The position numbers were made by a program, and so were the translations under genes. A DNA stretch of 12,615 nucleotides. Source: Pseudomonadales bacterium. Lineage in GTDB: Bacteria; Pseudomonadota; Gammaproteobacteria; Pseudomonadales; Azotimanducaceae. The notes under the pieces are model-generated. The model saw only the letters and a list, made by a program, of their open reading frames with translations, did no database searches and was not told the origin of the DNA. The stretch lies in NCBI GenBank assembly GCA_007128525.1, contig SKXG01000185.1, positions 1-12,615 on the forward strand, written 5' to 3'. Shown one piece after another: positions 23 to 12,615 of the stretch (positions are counted from its first letter, which is position 1; each line of letters begins with the position of its first letter).

Positions 23-457
23 TCAGGACGCTTCCGCAGTGCTCTGACAGTCCTGGCACAGGCCCTTGACCTCAACCGGGTCCGTCGAGGTGGTGAAGGC
101 CAGATCCGCGGCGCTGCGCGAGATACTGCGTTCAATGCCCCGATCTTCAAGCTCGAAGACGTTGGAGCAGTTCTTACACACCAGCAGCAGGCCACCATGA
201 CCCGGCTCGTGGCCATGGCAGGCCGTAAAGGCGTTCAGCGCCGCCACCCGATGCACCAGGCCGGCTGCAACCAGGAACTCCAGCGCCCGGTAAACGGTCA
301 CCGGCGCCGCGTTATCCCGGCTCTGCTTGAGCTGGTCGAGCAGCTCATAGGCCCCCAGTGGCGCGCCATGTGCACAGATCAGCGCATAGACCTCACGCCG
401 CAGCGGTGTGAACGACAGGCCACGATCAGCACACAGCTGCTCGGCATAAGCCATCAT
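23..457 (-). CDS. zur: Zinc uptake regulator Zur (Fur family)
   Basis: Cytoplasmic Fur-family repressor that binds DNA when zinc-loaded and shuts off zinc-uptake genes. Numbering from the ATG at 457 (144 aa), residues about 14-75 form the winged-helix DNA-binding domain, including TPLRREV and TVYRALEFL. The C-terminal half has the structural-zinc pairs C94/C97 and C134/C137. The four ligands of the regulatory site known from E. coli Zur (H77, C88, H96, E111) align with H69, C80, H87 and E102, which separates it from Fur, Mur and PerR. The start is uncertain. The frame stays open to a GTG at 583 overlapping the upstream gene, but that GTG has no ribosome-binding site. A TTG at 499 would add 14 residues. 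The ATG pair at 457/454 follows AGGA at good spacing and is preferred, although it leaves a short N-terminus. No Zur operator or zinc transporter gene is visible here. Confidence 0.92.
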   Translation of the reverse strand: MMAYAEQLCADRGLSFTPLRREVYALICAHGAPLGAYELLDQLKQSRDNAAPVTVYRALEFLVAAGLVHRVAALNAFTACHGHEPGHGGLLLVCKNCSNVFELEDRGIERSISRSAADLAFTTSTDPVEVKGLCQDCQSTAEAS

Positions 458-548
458 GCGTTCCTGCTCGGCGCGACTCGGTGTGTGTGCTTCGCTCAAT
501 GCATCGCCATACTGGACTGGATTCAGTGCGACTGTACCACCGGCGTCG

Positions 549-1334
549 TCAAAAGATGAAATTGACGCCCAGGAACGGCCCACTGAGATCGATATTACTG
601 CGATCCAGCCTGCTCATGTCATTGAGCTTCAGCTCATAGTGCCGCCAGCCACCTTCGACACCAAATCCGGCGCGGGTTTGCCAGCCACCGGAAACCATGC
701 TGTCGACAATGCGGTTGCCGCTATAGGCAATGGTGTCCACCTGTGCGCCAACCCAGAACCCGGTAAATGGCAGGTCCACGCGGGCCCGGCCGTGCACGAG
801 CGGCAGCACGCCACTGAACGACGCCCGCGCCTGCTCACCTTCACCGGCCAGTGTCAGCTCACCATCGACGTAGCGGAAGGTCAGACCAAGGTCCAAAGAC
901 AGCACGGTATCCCACAGGTTATAGAACAGCGTGGCATCCAGCTGATCAAGCTCCAGCTCACTGGCCACCTGGGCACCAGCGCTAAAGGTCTCACCGCGGA
1001 ACGAAATCTCCCGTTCCAGCTGATTGCGAGCTGACACATCGATCAAGGCGTACTGCGCACGCACGTTCGGAATCAGCGGAATCGGGTGCTTGAAGCTCGC
1101 ATAGATAAAGGTCTGGGTGTCCCGGCTGTAGTCCAGGTCGTCATCAACATCGATGCGCGTCGAGCCGGCCTGCACCGTACCGTCAAAGTTGCTGCTCCAA
1201 CCGGCCAACCCCAGTTCAACATCGACCAGGAACGCCTGCGCCTGAACGGTACCACCCAATAGGGCAACGGCTGCCAGGCTGCGAAGCCACGCGGATCGAC
1301 CGTTTCGCCTTGCGTGGCGCTTTGCATGATGCAT
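549..1334 (-). CDS. TIGR04219-family outer membrane beta-barrel protein
   Basis: Predicted 261-residue outer-membrane protein. It has a basic N-terminus (about 15 residues), a hydrophobic stretch and a signal-peptidase site after AQA at about residue 34. The mature part consists of alternating beta strands and ends in Asn-Phe-Ile-Phe, the terminal-aromatic signature of BAM-assembled barrels. An early acidic segment (DVDDDLDYSRD), then the block KHPIPLIPNVRAQY, are features I associate with the TIGR04219 family. The length (about 250-260 aa) also fits. The molecular role of that family is unknown. The start is set by AGGAG seven bases before the ATG. The gene lies 137 bases after the TonB receptor and its end is about 90 bases before the preferred zur start, so the three could share a transcript. 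No zinc-binding motif links it to Zur. Confidence 0.85.
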   Translation of the reverse strand: MHHAKRHARRNGRSAWLRSLAAVALLGGTVQAQAFLVDVELGLAGWSSNFDGTVQAGSTRIDVDDDLDYSRDTQTFIYASFKHPIPLIPNVRAQYALIDVSARNQLEREISFRGETFSAGAQVASELELDQLDATLFYNLWDTVLSLDLGLTFRYVDGELTLAGEGEQARASFSGVLPLVHGRARVDLPFTGFWVGAQVDTIAYSGNRIVDSMVSGGWQTRAGFGVEGGWRHYELKLNDMSRLDRSNIDLSGPFLGVNFIF

Positions 1335-1471: not shown

Positions 1472-3646
1472 TCAGATGCGCCAGTCTACAGTCAGGCCGA
1501 TACGCCGTGGCTCGCCAAGCTGCACATAATTGGTCGGCGAGTAGCCGTCGCGTGGATCATTGCCGAAGAAGAATCCGCGCACTGGATAGTCCTCATCCAG
1601 CAAGTTACGGGCCCAGATTTGCAGTGACCAGTTATCGTGGCGCCAGCCAGCCGTGAGATGCAGCAACTCATAGGCATCGGACTGTTCGTTGTGGCTGTCA
1701 GAGAAGTAGAAGCTGTCACGCCCCTCAACTTCCAATCGCGTGTAAAAATTGCCGGGGAACCGGTACTCACCCATTAGATGAAACTGATACGCAGGCGCGT
1801 GCGCCTGACGCCGGCCACGCAGACTGTCGCCTTGTGCATTGGTGTAGCTGCCATACTCGGCTCGCAACAATCCAAGTGCCGCCGACAAGTCCAACGCAGC
1901 CCATGGCTGCCACAACAACTCGCCTTCCAGACCGTAGTTCCGGCTGCCGCTTCCGGTGTTGCCCTTATAGGCAATGAACTCGGCGCTGCCGTCACCCCGC
2001 ACGCGCGTCTCCGATGTCGAGAGCTGGGCATCGTCACGCCACATGTGGAACAGGGTAAAGCGTCCCTGCACAGCATCATCCAGCCAGCCGCCTTTCAGGC
2101 CAAACTCCAGGTTATACAGACTCTCCGGATCAAAACGACGCAGATCTTCATCAAGATCACCATCAATATTGAAGCCCCCAACCTTGTAACCACGTGCCAG
2201 GCTGACATAGACCAGACGCTGGTTATCGAGTAGATAATCCAAGGCTACGTGCGCCCCGAATAAGTCGTCCTGCGGCGAGAAGCGCACATCATTGGAGTCA
2301 CTATAACGGGACCGATGCCGCTCATAGCGCATGCCGAGCGTCAGTCCCGTTCGATCAGACAGAGCACTTTCGGTCTGTCCGAACACAGCCTCCCGACGCA
2401 CGCTGTAGTCGCTCAGGAAAGGTTCAGCGAGAAAGGTGTAATCACGTCGCAGCGTCACTTCCTGGTCGTACCAGTAGATGCCAGCAACCCAATCCGTTGT
2501 ATCACTGAACAGGCGACCTTCCGGGCCCGACAACAGACGCAGTTCTGCGGTTGCCCGTGTCTGATCGCGCTGATAGTTGTCCGTTGAGCTATAACCGGCC
2601 GGATGAAATCCCTCAAAGGTCCAGTCTTCGTCATAGCCGTAGTCCACTTCGGTATCACTGAACGACATCAGCGCCTGAACCTGCACCTGATCACTGCCCT
2701 GCCAGGTGCTGCGCAACGCCGCATAGTCCGACAGCTGCTTATCGTGACCCGGCTCGTCCGACAGGGTGCGCCTGTTGTTGTCCAGTGAGAATGCATCATA
2801 GCCATTGTCGACATCGATGCGCCCCAGACTCAGATCAAAACGCCACTCAGGCGTTGGCTCCCACAGCACTCTTGTGCGCAGCGTCCGCTCATCAAAGTCA
2901 TTGGTGTCCTCTCTGTCGAGGAAGTCATTTTTCATAAAGCCGTCACTGCGATATTGCTCAGCGGCAATGCGAACCCTGAGTGTGTCCGTCAGCGGACCGC
3001 TGGCGAAACCAGCCAGTCCCAAACTGTTGTAATTGGCGACACGAGTCCGGACCCCAGCCTGAAACTCATCGGTGGGCGCATTGGTGACGATGTTGATCAT
3101 CCCGGCAAGGCCGGTGGCACCATAGCGAGTGCCTTGAGGGCCGCGAAAGATCTCGACCTGTTCCACGTCATAAAGTGTGCTGACAGCTGCAATGCCACTA
3201 AAGTCCACACCATCGATCAACGTACCAACACTGGCGTTGAGGGGCTCCGAGAACTCACTGCGCTCACCAATACCGCGCATCTGAAAGTAGCGTCCCCGCG
3301 AAGTGCCGGCCGCAAAATTCAGGTTCGGCGCCATGTTCAACACCTGCTCGAGGTGCTGCGCGTTACGCTGCTCGAGCTGAGCCTGGCCAAGCACCGACAG
3401 GCTCGCCGGCAGACTGTCGAGATCCGTCTCACGGAATTCCCCAGTCACGCGCAGCGTCTGCACCTGATCTTCATCCGCAGCTTCCTCAGGCTGGGCCTGC
3501 AGGACGGCCGCGTTGAACAGGCATGCCACACCGACAAAGGCTGTCACCAGCGCACGGGCGGCGATGCCTTGGTGGTCCGCAATGCCATGATAGAAAGGTG
3601 GTTCACCGCATGATGCGGTGGAAAATGCACGAGATCGCAACAACAT
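1472..3646 (-). CDS. TonB-dependent outer membrane receptor, predicted thiamin-regulated
   Basis: Outer-membrane active-transport receptor (724 aa), energised through TonB. Numbering from the ATG at 3646: hydrophobic signal core about 31-50, cleavage near LQA-Q (about 51), and a Ton-box-like segment (QVQTLRVTG) at about 61-70. A plug domain follows (about 75-190), with the conserved stretches VEIFRGPQGTRYG and GMINIVT. A 22-strand-type barrel fills the rest and ends in VDWRI, a position usually held by an aromatic residue. Length is normal for the family. The frame opens four codons earlier at a TTG (3658), but the ATG at 3646 has GGAG six bases upstream. The N-region before the signal core is unusually long (about 30 residues). 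A TPP riboswitch in the leader indicates repression by thiamin pyrophosphate, so the cargo is probably thiamin or a precursor. Without the riboswitch the plug and barrel would suggest only a generic siderophore, cobalamin or sugar receptor. No thiamin inner-membrane transporter or biosynthesis gene is adjacent. Confidence 0.9.
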   Translation of the reverse strand: MLLRSRAFSTASCGEPPFYHGIADHQGIAARALVTAFVGVACLFNAAVLQAQPEEAADEDQVQTLRVTGEFRETDLDSLPASLSVLGQAQLEQRNAQHLEQVLNMAPNLNFAAGTSRGRYFQMRGIGERSEFSEPLNASVGTLIDGVDFSGIAAVSTLYDVEQVEIFRGPQGTRYGATGLAGMINIVTNAPTDEFQAGVRTRVANYNSLGLAGFASGPLTDTLRVRIAAEQYRSDGFMKNDFLDREDTNDFDERTLRTRVLWEPTPEWRFDLSLGRIDVDNGYDAFSLDNNRRTLSDEPGHDKQLSDYAALRSTWQGSDQVQVQALMSFSDTEVDYGYDEDWTFEGFHPAGYSSTDNYQRDQTRATAELRLLSGPEGRLFSDTTDWVAGIYWYDQEVTLRRDYTFLAEPFLSDYSVRREAVFGQTESALSDRTGLTLGMRYERHRSRYSDSNDVRFSPQDDLFGAHVALDYLLDNQRLVYVSLARGYKVGGFNIDGDLDEDLRRFDPESLYNLEFGLKGGWLDDAVQGRFTLFHMWRDDAQLSTSETRVRGDGSAEFIAYKGNTGSGSRNYGLEGELLWQPWAALDLSAALGLLRAEYGSYTNAQGDSLRGRRQAHAPAYQFHLMGEYRFPGNFYTRLEVEGRDSFYFSDSHNEQSDAYELLHLTAGWRHDNWSLQIWARNLLDEDYPVRGFFFGNDPRDGYSPTNYVQLGEPRRIGLTVDWRI
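3604..3620 (-). repeat. Perfect 8-bp inverted repeat inside the receptor's first codons
   Basis: The early coding sequence contains CACCGCATCATGCGGTG, eight bases mirrored around a central base. It falls about 9-15 codons into the receptor gene, in the unusually long N-region ahead of the signal peptide. As RNA it can form a six- to seven-pair hairpin. It could slow early translation or belong to the riboswitch's expression platform, or it may have no function. Confidence 0.5.
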
Positions 3647-3650
3647 GGTC

Positions 3651-3678
3651 CACTCCAAGTCGATTTGCGATCCGGAGC
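3651..3678 (-). promoter_or_regulatory. Ribosome-binding site with a facing anti-SD stretch
   Basis: The Shine-Dalgarno GGAG (3653-3656) sits six bases before the receptor ATG. Eighteen bases upstream, CGCTCC can pair with GGAGTG through six base pairs, one of them G-U, which would hide the Shine-Dalgarno. This is a plausible gate for a riboswitch that acts on translation. The pairing is read from the sequence; its role is inferred. No intrinsic terminator with a T run is visible between the riboswitch and the gene. Confidence 0.4.
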
Positions 3679-3701
3679 GCCTAGCATGCGATAAGTGAAA
3701 T

Positions 3702-3715
3702 GCTTCGTGCGAAGC
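3702..3715 (-). other. Short hairpin between TPP aptamer and receptor gene
   Basis: GCTTCGCACGAAGC forms a five- to six-pair stem with a tight loop just downstream of the aptamer. No T run follows, so it is not an intrinsic terminator. It could be part of the expression platform or a spacer helix. Confidence 0.4.
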
Positions 3716-3720
3716 GAGAT

Positions 3721-3804
3721 ACCTATCCCTACGCCGGTATTGCCCGGATCAGGTTCAAAGGGTCCACCTTGTGGTGTCTCAGGCCTTGCGGCCTCCCCTT
3801 AGGT
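3721..3804 (-). promoter_or_regulatory. TPP (thiamin pyrophosphate) riboswitch, THI element
   Basis: The minus strand carries the hallmark THI-box blocks in order: GGGG, then CTGAGA, then ACCC, then GAACCTGATC, then CAATACC, then GGCGTAGGGA. The helices fit the known fold. P1 pairs ACCTA with TAGGT at the two ends. P2 pairs GGG with CCC, and P3 is AGGCC-GCAA-GGCCT. An extra stem (CCAC/GTGG) is present, as in many natural variants, and the P4/P5 arm closes through CCGG/CCGG. TPP binding normally represses the downstream gene, here the TonB receptor starting 74 bases away. The gap holds a possible Shine-Dalgarno-masking helix and no T-run terminator, so control of translation is more likely than termination. 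Confidence 0.96.
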
Positions 3805-4218
3805 TCGGGGCGCATTCTGCGCTAATGGGGCGGGTGACTCAAGCGCTTGTCCGAGGATCAACCGCTACATCTCCATTCTTCAAAACCGGCGGAGGCTTTA
3901 CCACTGCCGATCCGTGTCGGTGGGGCCGGTGGCGAGAGACGCCGTGAAGCCGTCCGTGGCGGCTTGCCCTCGCCATCCGTGGCTCGGGACACTCTGACGA
4001 GAGCCCCCACCCACGCCGAACGACATCGGAAAACCGACGTCGGGATTGAAGGGCTGCGCTGTAGCGGGTGGGCGTGGAGAGGCGTATGAGAACGTGGCCC
4101 CATCGTGCAGTGATGCCGGCAAAAAGCTGCCTCGTTGGCGCAACGTCGGACTCCCGACGGACCGCCTCTCCCCAAACGACTTTCTCAGGATTCCGCACAA
4201 CGCCCGCGCGCCACGGAG
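3805..4218. other. Non-coding, hairpin-dense intergenic block
   Basis: About 410 bases between the ligase's terminal stem-loop and the TPP riboswitch. All three minus-strand frames stay open for 100-119 codons, which shows GC-rich composition rather than a gene: none has a good ribosome-binding site or a recognisable protein pattern. The block is rich in short stem-loops: AAGCCG/CGGCTT (3947-3965), GCCA/TGGC inside CCC/GGG (3969-3988), CTCT/AGAG (about 3993-4004), a nine-pair stem with an AAAA loop and one mismatch (4021-4042), and CGTCGG/CCGACG (4144-4159). The motif TCCGTG recurs at about 3911, 3953 and 3976, each in or beside a loop. The receptor's promoter should lie in this block, but I could not pick a convincing -35/-10 pair. 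It may be a dispersed repeat or a structured RNA. Confidence 0.5.
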
Positions 4219-9061: not shown

Positions 9062-9343
9062 TCATTCGAGCAGTTGGTCGGGGGGCAGACGCACCGCCTG
9101 CGGGTCCGCTGCATAGGGGCTGATCTCGGTAAACAACGCCGGGTCGAGTCGGACGGAGGCTTCGACCTGCTCGCGCTGGCCACGCTGCGCCAGCGTTCGC
9201 AGCGCCTCGGCAACAGCCTGATTCTGGCGAAGTTGCTCGGCGCTGTAGGGCTGCGCGGCCAGTGGTGATGTCAAAAGACCCGCCACCACCAGCGGCATCA
9301 GCCATTGCATGCCCTTCCTGAATCGGGCTCTGACAAGGCTCAT
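9062..9343 (-). CDS. Small exported protein of unknown function (93 aa)
   Basis: Not recognised. The N-terminus is basic (RARFRK) and is followed by a hydrophobic core, MPLVVAGLLTSPLAA, with a signal-peptidase-I site near AAQ-P (residues 29-32). That leaves a mature chain of about 62 residues, predicted helical at first (SAEQLRQNQAVAEALRTLAQRG), then ending in a proline- and acid-containing tail. There is no cysteine, so no lipobox or disulfide. The ATG overlaps the TpsB stop as ATGA, with GGAG eight bases upstream. An internal Met at 12 would give a more typical short signal peptide. Being last in a coupled TpsB operon, it could be a periplasmic helper for the transporter or a tiny cargo. 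It lacks the TPS domain of classical TpsA proteins. Confidence 0.75.
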   Translation of the reverse strand: MSLVRARFRKGMQWLMPLVVAGLLTSPLAAQPYSAEQLRQNQAVAEALRTLAQRGQREQVEASVRLDPALFTEISPYAADPQAVRLPPDQLLE

Positions 9344-11403
9344 GGTTGAAACTCCAGTGTCAGCAATAGCCGGGGACGGCGCGCCACCCCGCGGTCATTC
9401 GAAGACCGTTCAAACAGCGGCGAGGCTAGAAGGACCTCACCGGTCAGCGCCCCGAAGGGCCATTGCCAGTGCTGCTGCCAGCCGAGGCCTGCACTGTTCA
9501 GCCATAGCCATGGGTTGCGATCAAACTGGCGCTGCTGACGGCCATAGCGACTGTCTGCCAGCACAATCAGCGCACCGGAGGCCAGCCCCGGCGGCGTCCA
9601 GCGCCACTCGACGCGTGCACCTGCGGCGCTGTCAGCCGACAGCATGGGATCCCGGTACCCCGCTGAGGCACCGGCGCCCCCCAGACTGGTCTGCAGCGGA
9701 CCGGGCAACGCATCGTTCGCCAGCTGGGCATCCGACCGCAAACGCAACTTCTGCGTGCCGGGCAGCCAACTGCTGTCCAGCAACCGCCAGGCATCCAGCC
9801 TGGCGGTGGCACGTATCAGGTTGCCGCCGCTGTCGATGCCCCTGCCGTCACTGAGGCGGCCGATATCCAGGCCCAGCGTCGAACGCAGGGACAACCCTGC
9901 GCCAAGCGCGGCGCCGTCCAGAATCCGATCATGCTGCCAGTTCAGGCTGCCGACCCAGAACTGCTGATCCTGCAGCCCAAAATCTGCCGGCTCCACATGC
10001 AATTGCAGGTCATAGACGGCAAAGGCTGCCTCCAACTCATGCGAGCGCTGGCGGCTGCGCAGTAGCCGATGGTTCGAGGCCAGACGAATCAGGGCGACAT
10101 CGCCTTCGACGTCATTCGCACCGTCACTCCAGGTGAACCTGTCCAGCGCCAGATGCACGCCGGCACTGTGCCGGATGTTACCCAACGGCAGCTGATAGTC
10201 CAGATACCCCCCGCCACTGCCACCTGGATTGGCCCGCGTCAGCAGACCCACCGCCAGCACGTCAGCGCGACCGGCGAGGTTGTACCAGGAAAGGTCGGCC
10301 ATGACCCGGCCATGACCCAACTCCCGATTGCCATGATTGTCCATCCGAACGGCAGTGTCCCATCTGCGCTCGTAACCAACCTGCAGGTCCAGCTCAGTCG
10401 CGCCGGTTCGGCTGCCAGGCGCGAAACGGGCGCGGGCTGACACACCCGGCATCTCGTTGAGCTGATACACCACCGCCGCCACAGGCTCGTGTCGCACAAC
10501 CTGATCCATCTGCGGCGCCAACGCCTCGCGCGCCAGCTCGGCCGGGAATCCGCCCACCGTTCTGACATGGGCTGCCGACAGCTCACCCGGCAGCACTGCC
10601 AGCTCAACCACGCCGCCTGACACAGCCTGAACCGGCACATAGGCCACGGCGATGGGCAATGCCTGGGTGCGCAGGTGACGGGTCAGCTCTGCCGCCAGAC
10701 GTTCCAGCTCGACCACAGACAAACCGCGGCGAGCCTTCTGGGCATCAATCAGTGCTTTGAGCTCCTCGGCCCCCTGCGTGGTCAGTCGAGCGTCCGGGGC
10801 GTGCAAATCCAGAGAATCCAGCAACTCGCCGATCTGGCTCAGCTCAGCCGCCGTGAACCCATGCGTGCCCGGCATTCCGGCCAGCTGCATGGCGCGCAAC
10901 CGCTCGTCGATGAAGTCCTGCAGCGCATCACCATCCAAGCCCAATGCCGGCCAGTCCAGCGGTTGCAGAATGACACGATCGACATCCAGTCGCGGGCTGG
11001 TCAACGGGTTGGGATCGCGCGCCGCCACAGGTGGAATCTGCGAGGCTGTGGCATCGGTATCCGCTGCTCGGACCAAAGGAGCAAACATCCACATGGTCAG
11101 CATGAGCAGCAATCCGGCTCCCAGCCCTGTCAGCCAACGCCAGCGCCGCCGCGCCGGAAACAGCATGGGCCGCGCCGCCAGCGCCGGTGGCGGCAGCGGC
11201 CCGAGTTCGACACGCCGCCTGGTATCTTCGGTCACATCTTCAGCGCCGGCCTCGGACGCTGCCGGTGTGGGTTCCGCACTGAAGGCGTTGACGACATCGC
11301 GGCGAATACGCCTGTATTCCGCCCGTGACAGTTCACCAGCGGCATGGGCGCGCGCGATCCGCCGTAATCGTTCTGTAGCCGGGTCCAGTTTCAGCAGGCT
11401 CAT
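9340..11403 (-). CDS. TpsB/ShlB/FhaC-family outer membrane transporter with cytoplasmic N-extension
   Basis: Two-partner-secretion type transporter (687 aa; usual family length about 550-600). Residues 8-42 form a charged helical pair resembling a SHOCT motif (LRRIARAHAAGELSRAEYRRIRR). Then comes a Pro/Ala linker, a transmembrane segment at about 90-110 (GLGAGLLLMLTMWMFAPL), and a possible signal-peptidase site at VRA-A (112/113). A helical segment with no clear counterpart fills 140-225. A POTRA-like domain spans about 226-335, with the typical stretch AYVPVQAVSGGVVELAVLPG. The barrel runs from about 338 to the end, which is LEFQP rather than a terminal aromatic. Loop L6 reads GGAGASAGYRD where the family has VRGY, so the signature arginine is Ala581; Asp591 remains. 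The start is supported by GGGAG five bases upstream and an ATGA overlap with the FGE-like gene. No TpsA partner is in view. Confidence 0.85.
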   Translation of the reverse strand: MSLLKLDPATERLRRIARAHAAGELSRAEYRRIRRDVVNAFSAEPTPAASEAGAEDVTEDTRRRVELGPLPPPALAARPMLFPARRRWRWLTGLGAGLLLMLTMWMFAPLVRAADTDATASQIPPVAARDPNPLTSPRLDVDRVILQPLDWPALGLDGDALQDFIDERLRAMQLAGMPGTHGFTAAELSQIGELLDSLDLHAPDARLTTQGAEELKALIDAQKARRGLSVVELERLAAELTRHLRTQALPIAVAYVPVQAVSGGVVELAVLPGELSAAHVRTVGGFPAELAREALAPQMDQVVRHEPVAAVVYQLNEMPGVSARARFAPGSRTGATELDLQVGYERRWDTAVRMDNHGNRELGHGRVMADLSWYNLAGRADVLAVGLLTRANPGGSGGGYLDYQLPLGNIRHSAGVHLALDRFTWSDGANDVEGDVALIRLASNHRLLRSRQRSHELEAAFAVYDLQLHVEPADFGLQDQQFWVGSLNWQHDRILDGAALGAGLSLRSTLGLDIGRLSDGRGIDSGGNLIRATARLDAWRLLDSSWLPGTQKLRLRSDAQLANDALPGPLQTSLGGAGASAGYRDPMLSADSAAGARVEWRWTPPGLASGALIVLADSRYGRQQRQFDRNPWLWLNSAGLGWQQHWQWPFGALTGEVLLASPLFERSSNDRGVARRPRLLLTLEFQP

Positions 11404-12615
11404 GGAATCTCCCGCACCAGGCGGAAACCGGTCTGGGCATCCGGCCGACCATCGTGGTCTCGAGTGAACCCGGCATCACAGCGTGACAGCGGATCCGTAA
11501 ATGCACCACCGGCAGCACGCACCCGACCATGGTCCTCCACCCACTCCTGAACATTGCCCAGCAGATTGACCAGTCCAAAGTCGTTTCCGGCGCCCGCTGA
11601 AGCAGGCACCAGGCCAGCACCGCGCGAGACACCGGTCAGTTGTACCTGGCAGTTCCTATTCGGGTCCGGTTCACCGGCCTCAGCTGCCTGCCGCCACTCG
11701 CGCAGTGTCGGCAGCCGGTATCGAAATCCGGTTTGCTGGCTGAGCCAGTCTGCATAAGCCTGCGCCGTTTGCAGGCTGATGCCCGTGACCGGGAAGCCGG
11801 GGTCGCCACCCAACACACAGGCACCAGTGTCGGTGCAAAATGGCGCCAGCTCCCGCCAGCTGACCGCATAGCGCGTCATTGCAAAGCGACCGTTCTCAGC
11901 TTCCGGTATGACCACCAGACGTGGCCCGGACTGACCACTTGAAAAGCTATCCACACAAAAGCCACTACGACCCGGCTGATTGCCATTGCCAATCAGGTAG
12001 CGCATGGCACAGGGGTCAAAGCGCAACTCAGACACCAAAGGCAGCTCTCCCATGGCGCGCAGGGCAGACTGCTGCAGGGCAAGTGCGCGATCCTGGTCGA
12101 GTTCGGCCAGACGTCGCACACAATCGGCTACAGCCTGATCGATGCCGCCACGAATCTGCTCACGGCCCCAGGGATAGCGCTCCGAGAGTTGCGTATACAG
12201 GCGGCTCGCCGCCTGCGCATCCATGCGCTGACAGGACATCTGGGCAAACTGCGCCAGCTCCCGCTCCAGCTGCGCCTGCTGCGCCCGCCGCCGGGCGGCG
12301 GCATCCTGCGCATCACGTTGCCGCCGCTGTTGAGACAATGCGTCCTGACGCGGCTCAATCAGCGCCAGATCGAAAACGCGGGGTTGAGCAGCCTCGAGCA
12401 ATTCAGCCCCCAGTGCCAGTTCGCCCTGCCGGATCGCGTGATCCGCGGCCTGCAGATAGGCTTCTCCACTGGCCTGTGCGTACAAGGCCTTGCGCTGCGG
12501 ACTGTCGCTGACCAGTGCGAACTGATCCAGCCGGCTCTCCACGTCAACCAGCCATTCGCGGCCAGCCTCCGATGGCGTATCGACCGCCACACGCAGAAGC
12601 GCCTGCAGCGCGCTC
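11400..12615 (-). CDS. FGE/SUMF1-like domain protein, N-terminus beyond the window
   Basis: The frame is open to the window edge. A GTG at 12590 has no ribosome-binding site in view, and the codons upstream continue as Ser-Ala-Leu-Gln-Ala-Leu-Leu-Arg, so the gene is probably longer. Numbering from 12590: helical and coiled-coil-like region 11-180 (QQRRQRDAQDAAARRRAQQ), then an FGE-sulfatase-type fold at about 222-394 with FAMTRYAVSWRELAPFC, YRLPTLREWRQAAEAG, NLLGNVQEWVED and TGFRLVR. True formylglycine-generating enzymes have a Cys pair near the C-terminus; here only C371 is in that region, so sulfatase activation is unlikely. Six other cysteines between 120 and 314 could form disulfides, suggesting a periplasmic location. 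In known proteins this domain is sometimes fused after a Ser/Thr kinase and a membrane segment; the missing N-terminus could be one, which is inference. It is ATGA-coupled to the TpsB gene. Confidence 0.85.
   Translation of the reverse strand, partial: SALQALLRVAVDTPSEAGREWLVDVESRLDQFALVSDSPQRKALYAQASGEAYLQAADHAIRQGELALGAELLEAAQPRVFDLALIEPRQDALSQQRRQRDAQDAAARRRAQQAQLERELAQFAQMSCQRMDAQAASRLYTQLSERYPWGREQIRGGIDQAVADCVRRLAELDQDRALALQQSALRAMGELPLVSELRFDPCAMRYLIGNGNQPGRSGFCVDSFSSGQSGPRLVVIPEAENGRFAMTRYAVSWRELAPFCTDTGACVLGGDPGFPVTGISLQTAQAYADWLSQQTGFRYRLPTLREWRQAAEAGEPDPNRNCQVQLTGVSRGAGLVPASAGAGNDFGLVNLLGNVQEWVEDHGRVRAAGGAFTDPLSRCDAGFTRDHDGRPDAQTGFRLVREIP

Follow-up and report, generated by a model that had tools for sequence, protein, structure and literature searches.

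A probable thiamin-regulated TonB-dependent receptor

TonB-dependent outer-membrane receptors linked to thiamin pyrophosphate (TPP) riboswitches, the omr1 group, were reportedly predicted as thiamin receptors by Rodionov et al. in 2002. Here, we analyzed a 12,615-nt stretch of DNA, in the following called the window, in which a TPP riboswitch aptamer stands in front of a gene for a TonB-dependent receptor that is predicted to be of this kind. The window is the entire contig SKXG01000185.1 of a Pseudomonadales draft genome from the family Azotimanducaceae (GCA_007128525.1; 2.60 Mb, 444 contigs, 73% complete). TPP-switched thiamin receptors are a kind of system that is already known and, judging from the sequence, this receptor would add a well-supported member.

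The closest described systems are the following. Thiamin auxotrophy is found in many aquatic bacteria, and omr1 genes close to a TPP switch are described from two clusters each of SAR86 and Flavobacteriales (PMC10881298). Like these omr1 genes, our locus combines a TPP switch with a TonB receptor gene downstream of it in thiamin-auxotrophic hosts, but it has no pnuT beside the receptor, and the two are likened by arrangement, not by sequence identity. In Bacteroides thetaiotaomicron, OMthi (BT2390) is a TPP-switched TonB receptor and BT2396 is PnuT; when OMthi was deleted in a mutant deficient in thiamin biosynthesis, the half-maximal effective concentration (EC50) of thiamin increased from 2.8 to 15.8 nM (PMC5613172). 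The genetic evidence that we found for thiamin crossing the outer membrane thus comes from Bacteroides, and a review that sums up OMthi and PnuT cites heterologous expression in Escherichia coli in support of the pair (PMC6977713). A TPP switch that controls, or is predicted to control, a TonB receptor is common to OMthi and the window receptor, which we likened by arrangement, whereas the host of OMthi belongs to the Bacteroidota and is a thiamin prototroph.

In 2009, putative thiamin receptors, unproven at that time, were found co-localized with pnuT in several similarity regions (PMC2771747). The same linkage is seen in relatives of the window receptor, but the thiamin candidates of that study fall into more than one cluster. 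Further examples are a receptor-like protein of a TPP-regulated Variovorax operon, predicted to act in thiamin uptake (PMC10409787), and marine TonB receptor clusters labelled siderophore-and-thiamin by homology (PMC11095472). No experimental work on a proteobacterial thiamin receptor was recognized by title or beginning of the abstract among the matches listed in a search that left most subscription papers outside. The comparative data presented here tie one receptor clade to the loss of thiamin synthesis across a family and name the residues of a candidate site (D284, D297, D302, D339, D341 and W342). The receptor is a good candidate for the first structure of a proteobacterial thiamin receptor; specialists will not be surprised by it.

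A TPP aptamer precedes a TonB-dependent receptor gene

Searching the window with Rfam returned a full-length match to RF00059 (model positions 1-105) with 71.5 bits, compared to a gathering score of 54.3 (E = 8.3e-13; cmscan). Nothing else in the window reached an Rfam gathering score, and the draft genome as a whole has no second RF00059 match. The THI element proposed by the initial annotation is therefore present, and at the location given there, with the match reaching position 3809 and not 3804. A TonB-dependent receptor is indeed the next open reading frame (ORF), at a distance of 62 nt between the end of the match and the ATG; the 74 nt named before imply an earlier end of the aptamer. 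Pairing within the aptamer is conserved, with changes on both sides in 6 of 19 predicted pairs across 35 compared aptamers. The RF00059 score and the conservation of the switch-receptor pair in relatives together exclude a chance match. At the start of the leader, a hairpin, GCTTCGCACGAAGC, with a weak T-rich tail overlaps the aptamer match (3702-3715); altogether, the leader contains one weak terminator-like hairpin, compared to 0.6 expected in shuffled sequences.

The receptor gene encodes 724 amino acids and starts with an ATG at 3646, preceded by GGAG a few bases upstream; a TTG at 3658 is an alternative start. The protein contains a Plug domain (PF07715, E = 7e-17, 62.3 bits, cut-off 23.9), while the Pfam barrel profile PF00593 had no match in it. 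By eye, its N-terminus shows a signal-like segment and the TonB-box-like TLRVTGEF. An AlphaFold2 model calculated from 60 sequences is a TonB barrel (pLDDT 82, pTM 0.85), and Foldseek matched this model to solved TonB receptors with TM-scores by query of 0.60-0.75 and 13-20% identity among the 50 matches listed. As a separate observation, the first receptor codons carry a perfect inverted repeat, CACCGCAT-G-ATGCGGTG (3604-3620), in an N-terminal stretch that is absent from most aligned relatives.

The best Foldseek matches are FyuA, FptA, FhuE and other siderophore receptors, which share the plug-and-barrel fold with the window receptor and differ from it in sequence at the identities given above. 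FyuA, FptA and FhuE transport iron siderophores. A siderophore or metal receptor that came to lie behind a TPP switch by chance, with a Zur-like regulator two genes downstream, would agree with these matches, with the FUR protein itself and with a generic match to TIGR01783, the model of TonB-dependent siderophore receptors. We consider this the least probable of the alternatives: the TIGR01783 match has 164 bits and stays below the NCBIfam cut-off of 223.5, the linkage to the switch recurs over many families, and the nearest relative (G003) has an enoyl-CoA hydratase-like gene next downstream of the receptor. The neighborhood of the Zur-like gene was accordingly discarded as a clue to zinc, as it is not preserved in this relative.

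Table 1. Positions of the features in the window and the basis of their assignment
Feature	Position	Strand	Basis or remark
TonB-dependent outer-membrane receptor, predicted omr1-type thiamin receptor	1472-3646	-	ORF, Plug domain, AlphaFold2 model, Foldseek, orthologues behind TPP switches
TPP riboswitch aptamer (THI element, RF00059)	3709-3809	-	Covariance match and conservation in relatives
Leader, aptamer match to start codon	3647-3708	-	Shine-Dalgarno (SD)-like GGAG before ATG
Extracellular loop L3, residues 281-300, NGYDAFSLDNNRRTLSDEPG	2747-2806	-	Position from model, outer side inferred
Strand end and extracellular loop L4, residues 339-354	2585-2632	-	D339, D341 and W342 invariant; position from model
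Zur-like FUR protein	23-583		Cut-off of the Zur model not reached
Other window proteins: TIGR04219 outer-membrane protein; two AMP-binding, acyl-CoA ligase-like proteins; one DUF3187 protein			

The switch-receptor pair in relatives and at homologous loci

RF00059 was also searched in 57 relatives, comprising 36 members of the same family and 21 of the same order (one per family), with stricter filters at which some weak matches are lost. Counting the window genome, 49 of the 58 genomes contain a switch. In the family it is present in 34 of 36 members, 32 of which have just a single match. Where the downstream side could be read, the switch is followed by a receptor orthologue in 30 of 32 family members and by thiC in two (G001, G007); in the two others the contig ends (G025, G030). 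Over all 53 switch places outside the window genome, the receptor follows in 35 (identified by ORF and blastp in 34 and by tblastn in G006), thiC in ten (in G053 after a thiD-like gene) and a contig end in two. The remaining six places precede two thiD-like genes, an NMT1/THI5-like gene, two binding-protein transport loci and a sodium-solute symporter. Second switches were found in G004, before a solute-binding protein, and in G034, before a thiD-like gene. Two family members (G018, G023) have the receptor without a switch match; in G018 the receptor match begins 144 bases from the contig start and the leader may be missing.

The pair extends beyond the order. Scanning genome contigs with an alignment of 31 receptors gave 588 loci, the best 80 of which are referred to as named loci; among their sources are Porticoccaceae, SAR86, Colwellia, Shewanella, Idiomarina and Methylophaga, and a few records are alphaproteobacterial. 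With a covariance model trained on 35 receptor-linked aptamers, that of the window among them, a switch was detected directly upstream of the receptor in 72 of the 80, four of them with less than 40 bits (L103, L107, L136 and, with 19.3 bits, L106). Four of the eight loci without an upstream switch start at a contig edge (L121, L127, L156, L166). Of the named loci, 62 contain a PnuT-like gene, in one case cut.

Additional switch matches were seen at some of these loci. Besides the one at the receptor, L112, L115 and L153 have an extra match elsewhere. In the Pseudoalteromonas loci L139, L145 and L154 a match lies on the strand opposite the receptor, 1.1-1.2 kb away, and in L166 the sole match is located 3 kb downstream of the receptor.

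The receptor and the loss of thiamin synthesis

Thiamin synthesis genes are missing in most of the family. thiC exceeded its cut-off in 17 of the 57 relatives, and in only two of the 36 family members. Three family members, the two prototrophs G001 and G007 as well as G034, have both thiE over cut-off and a strong thiG; the thiE match of G020 is weak (35.6 bits, cut-off 145.1), and all other PF05690 matches are partial and weak, some of them above Pfam's low cut-off. As a result, 33 of the 34 family members without thiC also have neither thiE over cut-off nor a strong thiG. In the window genome we found no thiC, thiE, strong thiG, thiamin pyrophosphokinase (TPK) or PnuT-type gene, absences that are weak in a genome that is 73% complete. 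ThiL, in turn, exceeded its cut-off in the window genome (contig C318) and in 32 of 36 family members, the others being G009, G017 (partial matches only), G026 and G029. TPK_catalytic matched a single one of the 58 genomes, G029.

The receptor (E <1e-100) is present in 39 of the 40 relatives without thiC and in none of the 17 with thiC. The one thiC-less relative without receptor, G050, has its switch before the NMT1/THI5-like gene, and the thiC-bearing G001 contains only a 30% match to the receptor (E = 5e-47). Fisher's exact test gave p = 1e-13 for the 57 relatives, among which the family members are not independent, and p = 3e-4 for the 21 order members. This complementarity with thiC, the conserved switch-receptor pair and the PnuT-like genes at the named loci support the earlier proposal of a TPP-switched candidate outer-membrane thiamin receptor.

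The distribution of the genes also bears on the substrate, for which thiamin, a phosphate ester, the pyrimidine moiety hydroxymethylpyrimidine (HMP) and the thiazole moiety had been listed. It points to intact thiamin or one of its phosphate esters, thiamin monophosphate (TMP) or TPP, and not to HMP or thiazole: because 33 of the 34 thiC-less family members have neither thiE over cut-off nor a strong thiG, the precursors would be unusable by the known route. Import of HMP or thiazole is consequently highly improbable in our view, even with G020 and its weak thiE match being one of the 33. In its favor, G034 has the receptor together with a thiD-like gene, thiE and thiG. This genome (L067, L052) contains one switch before the receptor and, in front of the thiD-like gene, a second one that at 51.2 bits falls just short of the cut-off. 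Neither thiC nor a PnuT-type gene was found in G034, which might be an exception that makes use of HMP.

A receptor that chiefly imports TMP or TPP, either dephosphorylated in the periplasm or used directly, is a less remote alternative to one for free thiamin, as TMP would be usable by the many genomes with ThiL. We nevertheless regard it as unlikely, since a kinase-like gene of the APH fold in 35 of the 80 named loci fits the entry of unphosphorylated thiamin and the conserved extracellular loop described below is acidic, which would suit a phosphate poorly. With ThiL present and TPK missing, thiamin itself would need a thiamin kinase. For APH-fold genes near some of the pnuT-type genes, the match to ThiK is weak and far below the cut-off (two tested, NCBIfam).

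In G029, which has no ThiL over cut-off, the thiamin pyrophosphokinase gene overlaps a PnuT-type gene (L191:3540-4776). A swap of the last step to TPP is likely in this genome.

A proposed route for thiamin and the evidence against it

The best explanation of the locus, which we consider very probable, is a switch-controlled receptor for thiamin uptake; here we infer the response to the ligand, the direction of control, transport and substrate. The riboswitch in the 5' leader would repress a one-gene receptor unit as long as intracellular TPP suffices, and a drop in TPP would allow the receptor to be made. Powered by TonB, the receptor would then carry thiamin, and perhaps its phosphate esters as well, into the periplasm. 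The next steps would be transfer by an inner-membrane carrier, of the PnuT type in relatives, and phosphorylation to TPP via TMP by a kinase and ThiL.

Several results weigh against this explanation. No PnuT-type gene was found in the window genome, in a search of a 73% complete assembly that did not extend to other inner-membrane thiamin carriers. In G023, a switch was not detected at the receptor (L196:2070-6649), which directly follows genes for an MFS transporter and an acyl-CoA dehydrogenase, and this genome has no PnuT-type match. The four named loci that lack a directly upstream switch without starting at a contig edge all belong to Pseudoalteromonas. When 31 leaders (from the window and 30 relatives) were folded under constraints, no clear switch emerged: comparing aptamer helix P1 formed with P1 blocked, access to the SD sequence was lower by >0.1 in four leaders, higher in one and unchanged in 26, including the window. 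For the anti-P1 stem of the window (GAUAGGU/ACUUAUC), 71 of 200 shuffled sequences were equally strong, and anti-P1 pairing beat the shuffles (at most 10 of 200) in three of the 31 leaders, the window not among them. Finally, in a class-wide sample of 186 genomes other than the window genome, the receptor (E <1e-90) was present in eight, four of which have thiC, a weak relation (Fisher p = 0.08); at most five candidates per genome were scored and some carriers may be missed.

The folding favored neither simple sequestration of the SD sequence nor a competing anti-P1 stem as the mechanism, and either may apply. Strict exclusion between receptor and thiC holds in the sample of relatives but fails as a general rule in the class sample; beyond the order, the receptor also co-occurs with biosynthesis.

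Conserved loops form a candidate substrate site

For the comparison of the receptors we aligned 111 sequences, a few of them partial, from the window, 30 relatives and the 80 named loci. These sequences do not count as independent, since L038 and L129 belong to a single contig and some of the named loci are closely related to other sampled relatives. The 30 relatives were taken from 35 fetched places with a receptor, leaving out L042, L062, L064 and L066 (unclear start) and L072 (no clean ORF). Across the alignment, 97 positions are conserved to at least 90%. Loop L3 is the most conserved of 13 loops and turns, with 81% mean identity to the window compared to 42% for residues 196-723, a degree of conservation that would be unusual for an outer loop. 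L4 is less conserved overall (53%). D284, D302, D339, D341 and W342 are identical in all 111 receptors, and D297 in 109. In the model these residues are located within or adjacent to the loops that follow strands 268-280 and 321-339, on a side that the pattern of long loops and short turns suggests to be the outer one. The acidic-aromatic L3/L4 region is a candidate substrate site that would suit the thiazolium cation.

A first regular expression for the motif, [YFW]xxDxDW, was abandoned because it missed seven of the 111 receptors (five from Shewanella, two from Ferrimonas), in which Y336 is replaced by H and D339, D341 and W342 are kept. The expression had no match in ten other TonB receptors, nine from the window genome (some partial) and one from G001. 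A FastTree phylogeny of 121 receptors grouped one partial paralogue of 387 amino acids with the TPP-linked sequences, on a branch of length 4.92; this position was taken as an artefact, and several other paralogue branches are long as well.

A wider proposal goes beyond the single locus, and we put it forward tentatively, with slightly less than an even chance of being correct. One large proteobacterial receptor clade would share a single thiamin-binding site, made up of L3 (NGYD...SDEPGxD) and L4 (DxDW), whose sequence would suffice to distinguish thiamin receptors from those for iron. Throughout a Pseudomonadales family of auxotrophs, the receptor would mostly be the sole TPP-controlled step and thus the regulated gate for vitamin B1.

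PnuT-type genes and the layout of the regulon

Linkage to pnuT is common, but not universal, for thiamin TonB receptors and is absent from the receptor operon of the window. Among the relatives, a PnuT-type gene follows the receptor in nine of 30 readable family members and in four of five order members, while the remaining 21 and one, respectively, have none beside it (in G035 the contig stops inside the receptor). The initial annotation had described the receptor as an isolated member of the regulon, which is right within the window and does not extend to these linked relatives. The receptor is often the lone gene seen behind the switch, because a single switch is the rule (32 of the 34 switch-bearing family members) and a neighboring PnuT-type gene was seen in just nine of 30.

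PF04973 matches proteins in 33 of 36 family members. Sequence identities, together with a phylogeny of 27 proteins (11 receptor-linked ones and 16 of 26 others, with the bootstrap not settled), set most of the unlinked PnuT-type proteins apart from the receptor-linked PnuT, and therefore 33 of 36 is not a count of thiamin carriers. From their sequences, the unlinked proteins may have another substrate. NCBIfam does not discriminate between the two kinds, labelling both as PnuC (five of six tested references), and the covariance model found no aptamer in 29 fetched regions, mostly around unlinked PnuT-type genes. PnuT as a universal partner of the receptor was dismissed, as most unlinked PF04973 proteins lie outside the receptor-linked group.

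Away from the receptor, 13 of 25 fetched family loci with a PnuC-type gene have a stretch resembling an APH kinase close by on the other strand (L173-L175, L178-L180, L182, L183, L185, L187, L189, L190 and L193). Two of these kinases were tested with Pfam and are APH; one was tested with NCBIfam and is weakly ThiK-like, below the cut-off. On sequence grounds, a vitamin carrier-kinase pair is possible.

Other genes of the window

Seven window proteins besides the receptor were scanned with Pfam and NCBIfam, and none is a thiamin gene. This agrees with the earlier statement that there is no thi gene or thiamin transporter nearby, as far as the eight scanned proteins including the receptor are concerned. 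At the far end of the window (9340-12590, reverse strand), a ShlB/FhaC-type protein of two-partner secretion adjoins a protein with an FGE-sulfatase domain.

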